Shown here: positions 14,033-17,198 of the stretch, in pieces
Layout of the letters: the number at the start of each line of letters is the position of its first letter
How positions within the stretch are numbered: position 1 is the stretch's first letter
NCBI GenBank assembly: GCA_902571055.1
Contig: CACGAM010000004.1
Coordinates: 55,966-119,965, forward strand
DNA length: 64,000 nt
Reading direction: 5' to 3'
From: an uncultured Pelagibacteraceae bacterium
GTDB lineage: Bacteria > Pseudomonadota > Alphaproteobacteria > Pelagibacterales > Pelagibacteraceae
The notes under the pieces: model-generated
The model's input: the letters and a program-made list of their open reading frames with translations, nothing else
The model's database searches: none
What the model was told of the DNA's origin: nothing
Program-made: the position numbers and the translations under genes

Positions 14033-14352
14033 CTTATATAGTTAATGATAAATGTATTAAATGTAAATTAATGACTTGTGTCGAAGTTTGTCCAGTTGAT
14101 TGTTTTTATGAAGGAAAAAATATGCTTGTAATTAAACCTGATGAGTGTATAGATTGTGGCGTTTGTGAACCTGAGTGTCCTATAGGTGCGATTGAACCAG
14201 ACACAAATGAAGGAACAGAGAAATGGTTAGAGATTAATAAAAAATATTCAGATGTATGGCCGAATATTAAAGAAAAAAAAGAAAGTCCTTACGGAGATAA
14301 ATTAAAAGATGAAAAAAATAAATTTGAAAAGTATTTTGAAGAAAACATTTAA
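14029..14352 (+). CDS. fdxA: 7Fe-type ferredoxin FdxA
   Basis: Small electron carrier with one [3Fe-4S] and one [4Fe-4S] cluster. Cysteines C9, C12, C17, C21 and C25 lie in the first part ([21 protein letters not shown]) and C40, C43, C46 and C50 in [19 protein letters not shown]. Length 107 matches alphaproteobacterial FdxA. The C-terminal tail (about 55 residues, ending [10 protein letters not shown]) is acidic and helical. Fourth codon-coupled gene set member: ATGA overlap with the TerB-like gene, and 44 bases of overlap with carD. Its redox partner is unknown. Confidence 0.93.
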
Positions 14353-15166
14353 AAAAAAAAATAATCAGACTAAATCTGTATCTAAAAAGAAGAAATCTGT
14401 AAAAGCTGAAAAGATAAAAAAAAACCTCAAAATAGTAAAATTAAGAAAAAATAATGAAAAAAAAATAAAAGATGGTAAAAAAATCAAACAAAAGAAAAGT
14501 GAGAATAATGAGCAAAATTTAAGACTTACTAAAAATATTTCAGATCAAAAACCAGAGATAAAAAAGATAAAAAAACAATCTACTGAAAAAAGAGTTTACA
14601 AAATAAAAGACTATGTTGTTTATCCTAAACATGGAGTAGGTCAAATTATTGAGTTCAAGAAAATTAATATCGGTGGTATTGATGTAGAGACTTACGTCTT
14701 AAAATTTGAAAAAGACAAAGCTAGCGGAATGATACCCGTTAATAAACAATTACATTTGAGACCTTTAGCTACAATAAATCAAATTAATAAATGTGTAAGC
14801 ATACTTAAAAGTAAGCCTAAGATTAAGAGGTCTATGTGGAGTAGAAGAGCACAGGAATACGAAGCAAAAATATCGTCGGGTAAAATCTATGAGTTAGCAG
14901 AAGTAGTTAGAGACCTAAATAAAGGTGAAGATCTAATGATAGACCAATCCTATAGCGAAAGACAGCTATTCGAAAAAGCATATGAAAGACTACTTACAGA
15001 ATTTCAGATAGTTTTAGGCACAAATTTAGAGAACACTCAAAAAAAATTGGATAAAGCGTTAAAAAGAAATCTAGATAAAGAAGCTACTAAAGCAGCTTCT
15101 AACGAAGCTAAAGTTACTCCAGACAATACAGTAAGTGAAACTAACGAAGTTTCCGAGAGCGTATAA
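14309..15166 (+). CDS. carD: CarD/CdnL-family RNA polymerase-binding regulator with Lys-rich N-terminal extension
   Basis: Transcription regulator that binds the RNA polymerase beta subunit and stabilises open complexes, typically at rRNA and other core promoters. The CarD_CdnL_TRCF domain starts near residue 97 ([18 protein letters not shown]). The C-terminal DNA-contacting helical domain follows, with [28 protein letters not shown]. The first about 95 residues are almost all Lys, Ile, Asn and Glu, a long disordered basic extension. An in-frame stop at 14303 makes the ATG at 14309 the first available start; a later non-ATG start cannot be excluded. It overlaps fdxA by 44 bases. A terminator hairpin begins at its stop. 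Confidence 0.9.
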
Positions 15167-15203
15167 AAAAAAACGCTTCCCACGCAATCGCCATGAGAAG
15201 CGT
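15165..15203 (-). terminator. intrinsic terminator of the 23-aa peptide gene, possibly bidirectional
   Basis: On the minus strand the stem ACGCTTC...GAAGCGT (7 bp, 17-base loop that can pair further inside) is followed at once by eight to nine T residues. That is a canonical Rho-independent terminator for the gene at 15231-15302. Read on the plus strand just after the carD stop, the same stem is followed by ATTTTATT, so it may also end the carD operon. Confidence 0.82.
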
Positions 15204-15230
15204 ATTTTATTAAAGAAAAAGAATACTAAA

Positions 15231-15302
15231 CTATCTTCTTCTTCTTTTCTTAGCTTTTTTAGCTTTCTTTTTCTTTTTAGCTTTTTTTCTTCTTTTAGCC
15301 AT
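15231..15302 (-). CDS. 23-residue Lys/Arg-rich basic peptide
   Basis: Too short for the ORF track. The minus-strand ATG at 15302 opens MAKRRKKAKKKKKAKKAKKR followed by RRR and TAG; apart from the initiator Met, only Lys, Arg and Ala are used. The gene is strongly supported as a unit by a Shine-Dalgarno AAGGGAG six bases before the ATG, an upstream 7-bp hairpin, a TTGACA box and a strong intrinsic terminator after the stop. Such a charge pattern suggests RNA or DNA binding: a ribosome-associated microprotein, an AURKAIP1/COX24-like mini protein, or a histone-H1-tail-like peptide. I do not recognise a specific family. Codons are mixed (AAA, AAG, GCT, AGA), so it is not a simple repeat tract. 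Confidence 0.7.
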   Translation of the reverse strand: MAKRRKKAKKKKKAKKAKKRRRR

Positions 15303-15308
15303 TTTTAG

Positions 15309-15379
15309 CTCCCTTGTTTTACGAATCATTATTGATTCGCGCTTATATAATTTTTATTTTTTTTAATTAGTTATGTCAA
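15309..15379 (-). promoter_or_regulatory. promoter, 5' hairpin and Shine-Dalgarno of the 23-aa peptide gene
   Basis: On the minus strand: a perfect -35 TTGACA (15374-15379), 17 bases, then TAAAAA (15351-15356) as a weak -10. Transcription is expected near 15344. The transcript would begin with GCGCGAATCA-ATAA-TGATTCG, a perfect 7-bp stem with a 4-base loop (15322-15339), followed by AAGGGAG (15309-15315) six bases before the ATG. The hairpin may protect the 5' end or be a dyad operator. An alternative -10 is TATATA at 15343-15350, but its spacing to TTGACA is too long. Confidence 0.55.
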
Positions 15380-15488: not shown

Positions 15489-17198
15489 TTATTGATAAAG
15501 TTTTTCAATGGAATTTTTATATTTTTGAATAATTTTAAATCTTTTTAACTTTAAAGTTGGTGTTAACATTCCATTCTCAATTGAAAATTTTTCATTAATT
15601 AAAAAATATTTTTTAATTTTTTCAATTTTCGATAAATTATTATTAATTTTTTCAATTTCGTCTCTAATTTCGACTTTATCTAAATCTTTTTTGTCATTAC
15701 TTAACACTAACAATGCAATTAAATAAGGTTTGTTTTCTCCATACACTATTGCTTGATCAAAAAGATTTGAATTTATAATTTCATTTTCAATCTTTAAGGG
15801 ACTTATGTTGTCACCTCCGGGTGTAATTATAATATCTTTTTTTCTGTCAGTTATTTTAAGATAATTTTTTTCGAAAACTCCAATATCTCCTGTGTATAAC
15901 CATCCGTCTTTCAAAACTTTATTGGTCTCTACGGTATTATTCCAATAACCCAACATAACATTTTCGCCTTTGACTAATATCTCTCCATCTTCAGCTATTT
16001 TAACTTCATTTCCTTTAAATGGAGGTCCTACTGTATCAACTCTTATATCATCTATTGGATTGCAGCTTACCACCGGTGAAGCCTCAGTTAGACCATAACC
16101 TTGCAAAGTAGGCAATCCTATTGCATTAAGAAAATAACCAACTTCTTTGTCCAAGGCACCACCTCCTGAAACAAAAGTTTTAAGAGAACCCCCAAATTGT
16201 GCTTTAATTTTTTTTCTGATTATTTTATCTAGTAGGAAATTTTGAATTTTTTCAAAAATATTTAAAGGTATTTTTCTATTTTTTTTTAAACCTAAACTAA
16301 TTGTTTTGTCAATTAATACTTTTTTAATACCCTTTATTTTTTCGAAATTAGAATTTATCTTTTGAAATAAGTTTTGATAAAATCTTGGCACGGCTGTCAT
16401 AATATCGGGAGAACAATCGTTCATATTCTTTATTAATTTTTCAATACTTTCCGCATAAAACACTTTTGCATTTACACTAACTTGAACAAACTGGACCGTA
16501 TGCTCATAGGAATGAGAAAGAGGTAACCAGGTAAGAAATTTCGGATTATTTTTTTTAATTAGTGGGTTTAAAAGTTCAATTGCTCCCTCGCAGTTATTTA
16601 AAATTCCACCATGACTTAGCATGACGCCTTTTGGATTTCCTTGTGTCCCTGAAGTATAAATTATGCAAGCTACATCTTTTCTATTCAGATTAGATGGAAA
16701 ATTAATGTTATTTTCTTTTGTTTGAATTATTAAATTATTTATATTTACATAATTCTTAGGATCTAAATCTTCTATTTTTTCAAAAGAAAATATCTTTTTT
16801 ATAAAATTTTTTTTTTTTACTATATTTTTTATCTTATTAAATTGTTCATTGTTTGAAACAAATATAACTGTTGGACCACAATCATCAATGATGTACTCAT
16901 AGTCTTTCTCGATATAAGTTGTATAGGCTGGAACAGTAATTGATTGCGAAAGCATGATTGACATATCAGAAATAAACCACTCAGGTCTGTTTTCAGATAT
17001 TAGTAAACATCTATCACCTTTTGTAACAAATTTGCTTAGTTCTGTAGAGAGAATATTAATTGATTTAAATACCTCTGACCAACTATAACTTTTTTTTGGT
17101 TCTTTAAGATTTGTTAACAGAATTTCATTCTTATCTTTTAGTGACGAATATTTTTCAAAGAAAAGCTGATTTAGATTATTAATATTTTTTATGTTCAT
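15489..17198 (-). CDS. long-chain fatty-acid--CoA ligase (AMP-forming, COG1022 type)
   Basis: ANL-superfamily enzyme activating a fatty acid to its CoA thioester. The P-loop YTSGTQGNPKG is at 181-191, followed by FLTWLPLSHSYEHT, which is typical of long-chain (FAA1-like) ligases. GYGLTEASPVVS is the adenylate-binding motif, and GWLYTGDIGVFE and LKITDRKKDIIITPGGDNISP form the hinge region. At 569 aa it is slightly short, since the C-terminal subdomain is compact. It is not clustered with beta-oxidation genes. Exact chain length is unknown; a related carboxylic-acid ligase is possible. Confidence 0.85.
   Translation of the reverse strand: MNIKNINNLNQLFFEKYSSLKDKNEILLTNLKEPKKSYSWSEVFKSINILSTELSKFVTKGDRCLLISENRPEWFISDMSIMLSQSITVPAYTTYIEKDYEYIIDDCGPTVIFVSNNEQFNKIKNIVKKKNFIKKIFSFEKIEDLDPKNYVNINNLIIQTKENNINFPSNLNRKDVACIIYTSGTQGNPKGVMLSHGGILNNCEGAIELLNPLIKKNNPKFLTWLPLSHSYEHTVQFVQVSVNAKVFYAESIEKLIKNMNDCSPDIMTAVPRFYQNLFQKINSNFEKIKGIKKVLIDKTISLGLKKNRKIPLNIFEKIQNFLLDKIIRKKIKAQFGGSLKTFVSGGGALDKEVGYFLNAIGLPTLQGYGLTEASPVVSCNPIDDIRVDTVGPPFKGNEVKIAEDGEILVKGENVMLGYWNNTVETNKVLKDGWLYTGDIGVFEKNYLKITDRKKDIIITPGGDNISPLKIENEIINSNLFDQAIVYGENKPYLIALLVLSNDKKDLDKVEIRDEIEKINNNLSKIEKIKKYFLINEKFSIENGMLTPTLKLKRFKIIQKYKNSIEKLYQ

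Follow-up and report, generated by a model that had tools for sequence, protein, structure and literature searches.

A conserved gene for a lysine-rich microprotein beside carD in Pelagibacterales, and the possible relation of its product to histone H1 tails

The window analysed here, a stretch of 64,000 nucleotides from an uncultured Pelagibacteraceae bacterium, carries a compact unit on the minus strand between positions 15165 and 15379. Its open reading frame (15231-15302) encodes a peptide of 23 amino acids, MAKRRKKAKKKKKAKKAKKRRRR, ends with a TAG stop (15233-15231), and is preceded by the Shine-Dalgarno (SD) sequence AAGGGAG (15309-15315), located 6 nt before the ATG (15302). Upstream, a −35 box TTGACA (15374-15379) can be read from the sequence, followed at 17-bp spacing by a weak putative −10 box TAAAAA (15351-15356), and the promoter boxes place the predicted +1 near 15344. 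Just past this putative start lies a 5' element, CGAATCA-ATAA-TGATTCG (15322-15339), which forms a hairpin and includes two GANTC sites. The unit ends with a terminator hairpin, ACGCTTCTCATG/CGTGGGAAGCGT (15173-15203), and a tract of 8 U (15165-15172) that overlaps the carD stop codon. All the elements claimed in a preliminary description of this DNA (promoter box, 5' hairpin, AAGGGAG, ORF and terminator) were thus found, on the minus strand; for the terminator, the hairpin and its U-tract stand as described, while the stem, given there as 7 bp, is 12 bp long when G-U pairs are counted.

The convergent neighbour is carD (cdnL; 14309-15166, plus strand), the product of which carries the Pfam domains CarD_TRCF_RID and CarD_C and, at the N-terminus, an extension of about 100 aa that is rich in Lys. 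The upstream neighbour (15489-17198, minus strand) encodes an AMP-binding (acyl-CoA ligase-like) enzyme and is convergent to carD in 138 loci, on the same strand in none. An in-frame ATG at 15329, upstream of the microprotein start, would give a 32-aa alternative reading, but it lies within the 5' hairpin, apparently has no SD sequence and is shared by very close relatives only. The minus-strand transcript is predicted to be structured, with a folding z-score of −5.45 against dinucleotide shuffles. Much of genus 1 retains a 3' UTR segment, TTAGTATTCTTT (15206-15230, minus strand), for which base-pairing with the ORF's Lys codons is predicted in the window.

The microprotein sequence is too simple to serve as a query, and homologous loci were located via CarD. 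At the family level the CarD searches reached 163 of 197 genomes, at the order level 101 of 117 and at the class level 99 of 114, in addition to 80 GTDB loci, and from these, selected CarD loci with enough flanking DNA were scanned for the ORF. The order sample consists of the Pelagibacteraceae and one sister family (f2), with duplicate places removed, some genomes possibly being included under two accessions. When the interval after carD was compared in this way across Pelagibacterales, as the preliminary description had proposed, a Lys/Arg-rich ORF was detected at the same position and on the same strand in 169 of the 170 evaluable loci, 145 in the family of the window (every genus sampled) and 24 in f2; in five additional loci the contig edge lies within 140 bp of carD. 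The single exception, L122, reads MAKRRKGGKKKKKAK and is then frameshifted in an A-rich stretch, representing either an assembly error or a genuine loss. At L083, an inserted gene of about 0.8 kb separates the microprotein unit from carD, both of which are undamaged, terminator included. Since the conservation spans the order, a chance origin of the ORF is ruled out. Among 50 loci of other alphaproteobacterial families (30 at the class level and 20 from mostly small genomes), scanned at the position beside carD, no homologue was found.

The preliminary description had named one pattern that would speak against a gene, hairpins kept and frame lost in relatives, and the opposite was observed, the frame being retained at every evaluable locus except L122. 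The length of the ORF ranges from 19 to 58 codons in Pelagibacteraceae and from 60 to 99 in f2, and the differences are whole codons. Within sets of the same length, the variable sites number 89, 126 and 183 for codon positions 1, 2 and 3, respectively. A crude N/S ratio was 0.06 for the 25-codon set, 0.31 for the 27-codon set and 0.54 overall, values inflated because the same-length sets mix genera between which Lys, Arg and Ala positions do not strictly correspond. An SD-like site is present at 168 of 169 loci, the remaining one being severed by a contig end.

The choice of Lys codons is also distinctive. AAG makes up 199 of 473 Lys codons (42%) before Lys, as against 15 of 311 (5%) before Arg or Ala, and in 60 distinct peptides the mean length of the longest A-run is 7.27 nt, as against 9.64 nt with Lys codons shuffled within genes (lowest mean among 2000 shuffles, 8.98 nt), both samples consisting of related, hence not independent, sequences. 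The genes of the window show no such placement, with AAG at 12-13% before Lys as well as overall. Ribosomes of E. coli slide along runs of A (PMC4363877), and the AAG placement therefore fits selection for clean translation; polymerase slippage could be an additional contributor to the short A-runs. The kept frame, the whole-codon lengths, the third-position variation and the AAG placement strongly support the protein-coding gene claimed at the outset, and we conclude with high confidence, as far as sequence comparison can tell, that the locus holds a real, conserved and translated microprotein gene.

The flanking signals are conserved as well. CGAATCA is present in 166 of 167 leaders, and its distance from TTGAC is 33-36 nt in 163 of 166 loci, the other three being cut or diverged there. 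This arm of the 5' hairpin is near-invariant while the pairing arm changes between genera: the arms are AACGAATC/GATTCGTT in genus 1, ATCACATAA/TTATGTGAT in genus 9, TCACTTAAAA/TTTTAAGTGA in genus 12 and GAATCA/TGATTC in f2. As the partner arms differ by genus, the hairpin is maintained through different pairings. The terminator was found with covarying arms in 163 of 169 loci, with compensatory arms between genera such as AACGCTTCTCATA/TGTGAGAGGCGTT, AAACGCTCTCT/AGAGGGCGTTT and AGCATTGA/TCAATGCT. Among the six loci without a terminator by scan, three show a hairpin and a short T-run by eye, and in the f2 loci L161-L163 none was found either by scan or by eye. The gene thus appears to form an independent transcription unit with its own conserved promoter and terminator. 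The locus is absent from the section on SAR11 promoters of a Red Sea SAR11 study of transcription start sites (PMC5069720).

The product is best described by its composition. In Pelagibacteraceae it consists of 56% Lys, 19% Arg and 17% Ala, and in f2 of 49% Lys, 25% Ala, 10% Arg and 7% Pro. The f2 gene, at the same position, with a shared AACGAATCA leader and a strong SD, encodes a protein of 60-99 aa, MEELKVIFAKARKKAKKKAAPKKKRKAAKRKPAKKKAAPKK...KKRR, made of Ala/Lys/Pro repeats of the KKAAPKK type and resembling the C-terminal tail of histone H1. In genera 12, 9 and 7 the product has 29-58 residues, with AKKKAPAKKRK motifs in genus 12, and in the remaining genera mostly 19-31 residues of Lys, Arg and Ala. 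The length tracks the CarD tree, in which f2 stands outside the family and genera 5, 7, 9 and 12 stand apart from the short-form clade. Composition is retained while length and residue order drift, and the two termini (MAK[RK][RK]... and ...RRRR) show stronger conservation than charge alone would demand, a point against a purely charge-driven role. The short and long forms are probably homologous, as judged from position, leader and length gradient, their sequences not being alignable. The simplest reading would be one gene, the product of which became shorter in Pelagibacteraceae and, in genus 1, grew slightly again through added AKKK units; because the outgroup has no such gene, growth in f2 is an alternative.

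Sequence searches of Pfam, NCBIfam and PDB gave no family for any form tried. Neither Hc1 (PF07432) nor linker histone (PF00538) was matched at E<=10 by the long forms and one 30-aa form, or at E<=1 in Pfam by the 23-aa form, although the low-complexity correction of HMMER may conceal such a match. Literature searches for SAR11 together with histone-H1-like or lysine-rich small proteins returned nothing.

Bacterial proteins that resemble the H1 C-terminal domain include chlamydial Hc1 and Hc2, AlgP, and the lysine-rich tails of mycobacterial HupB and of streptomycete HupS and TopA. Like the microprotein family, with the KKAAPKK repeats of its f2 form, they are Lys/Ala(/Pro)-rich, repetitive, of low complexity and highly basic; the Pelagibacteraceae form differs from them in being stand-alone and only 19-58 residues long (mostly 20-30), in having more Arg and in mostly lacking Pro. 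The Lys/Ala/Pro-rich, repetitive composition of this class is seen in the f2 form and weakly in the 23-aa form, and the label H1-like, as applied here, would refer to composition and repeat pattern. Protamine-like peptides are likewise very short, disordered and composed of basic residues, but the microprotein is dominated by Lys rather than Arg, belongs to a growing bacterium and has no sequence relation to protamines.

CarD itself is unusual in this order. In both families its N-terminal extension is 91-150 aa long with a net charge of +23 to +62 (in the window it is encoded by 14309-14615, plus strand), as against a median of 14 aa and a charge of 0 in 28 other alphaproteobacterial CarDs, at least one of which bears a long and charged tail. 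At L161 of f2 the extension contains VAKKKVAKKK repeats, and the CarD tail may represent another H1-like polycation encoded here. Across the order, microprotein length rises with tail charge (rho 0.45); this may only reflect the family split, since within genus 1 the two are uncorrelated (rho 0.16, p 0.10).

The microprotein is almost certainly a disordered polycation, judging from its composition. The drift of length and residue order under a constant composition suggests charge-driven binding to nucleic acids rather than a fixed binding pocket or ribosomal site, and the H1-tail-like long form in f2 tips the balance towards nucleic-acid or nucleoid binding over ribosome binding. We somewhat favour, at slightly better than even chances, a miniaturised H1-tail-like nucleic-acid-binding (nucleoid or DNA-binding) protein. 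Such a protein would act like the histone H1 C-terminal tail or a protamine, its charge offsetting that of the phosphate backbone irrespective of sequence, and would help to condense or coat DNA, possibly RNA too, in a streamlined cell; SAR11 would have shortened it to about the minimum that is still strongly positive. The main rival, which we consider rather unlikely, is a ribosome- or rRNA-associated microprotein that threads into rRNA and stabilises the ribosome. Size, charge and order-wide conservation fit this role, the strong SD and the dedicated promoter would suit a housekeeping product, and bTHX, bS22 and mS38 are similarly strongly basic with 20-40 residues. These have fixed, non-repetitive sequences, however, unlike the microprotein, and a range of 19-99 residues within one order is unlike a structural ribosomal slot. 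Moreover, the short forms lack aromatic and His residues, the 23-aa peptide has no Pfam match, and the f2 form is repetitive in the manner of H1 tails. COX24_C (PF08213), the domain family of mS38, was unmatched in the genome of the window even at E<=10, and membership in this family was rejected.

That the microprotein is a partner of CarD/CdnL and RNA polymerase, acting with the basic CarD tail on promoter DNA as a two-gene transcription module, is less probable still. It would account for the constant adjacency of the two genes in the order, L083 with its one intervening gene excepted, and for a CarD tail so much longer and more charged than elsewhere. Myxococcus xanthus CarD offers a precedent, in which an RNA polymerase-binding domain is joined to a DNA-binding part (PMC4374960). 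SAR11 CarD resembles this protein, with its HMGA-like DNA-binding domain, in having a basic, DNA-binding-like region added, but the basic part of the M. xanthus protein is C-terminal and in the same chain, and the SAR11 microprotein is a separate gene. The genes are convergent with separate promoters, so that they form no operon, and adjacency may reflect nothing more than inertia; besides, the charge of the tail is uncorrelated with peptide length within the genus. A small RNA, or an antisense RNA to the 3' end of carD, with a fortuitous open frame would agree with the structured transcript and the conserved 5' hairpin and terminator, and A-rich DNA readily gives Lys codons. Among known RNA families only a sub-threshold match to PyrR was detected (26.4 bits, where the gathering score is 54; E 0.88), and a survey of structured RNAs in Pelagibacter (PMC2704228) does not mention carD. 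The frame kept in 169 of 170 loci, the whole-codon length changes, the SD in all complete leaders, the third-position bias, the AAG placement and the gradation into a 60-99 aa protein make this explanation highly improbable and effectively refute it; non-coding RNA with a chance frame was rejected on frame conservation, codon-position bias and AAG placement. We also rejected, as having next to no probability, a Lys/Arg leader peptide of a transcription attenuator. A short ORF rich in the codons of one amino acid and followed by a terminator is indeed the attenuator layout, but no same-strand gene lies past the terminator, which runs into carD antisense, and the f2 form has 60-99 aa.

SAR11 is one of the most abundant groups of organisms in the sea and serves as a model of genome streamlining; the organisation of its nucleoid is little known. 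The microprotein gene is carried by nearly every member examined, being too short and simple for gene callers and its product invisible to tryptic proteomics. If the H1-tail-like protein proposed above is correct, the locus offers a natural series from 99 down to about 20 residues, on which to study how little polycation a nucleoid (or a ribosome) needs.

The element at the promoter is specific to this gene. The CGAATCA inverted repeat has a single site in each of six of 12 genomes and none elsewhere, and the promoter pattern (TTGAC...CGAATCA) has at most one site per genome in the 12, at the microprotein gene only. With each at no more than one site per genome, the CGAATCA element is gene-specific, and a regulon sharing it was rejected. 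CGAATCA (15333-15339, minus strand) stays constrained where its first bases have no pairing partner, and more tightly than GANTC would need. Methylation of GANTC occurs in Pelagibacter (PMC9516812); eight of 10 Pelagibacterales genomes encode GcrA, which was not found in the 82%-complete genome of the window. Because the invariant block extends beyond GANTC and is found immediately downstream of the putative +1, a role of GANTC methylation at this promoter can be considered only as a possibility. A more speculative proposal, to which we give a low probability, is that the microprotein and the CarD tail form an order-specific pair of H1-tail-like polycations, and that the +1 element with its CcrM site couples synthesis to replication. 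If so, few known conserved nucleoid proteins would be as small as the microprotein. The leaders of L139, L147, L150 and L171 (genera 7, 9 and 12, and f2) contain CTCC or ACCTCT upstream of an SD of the GGAGG type, a possible anti-SD sequence that might mask the start site.
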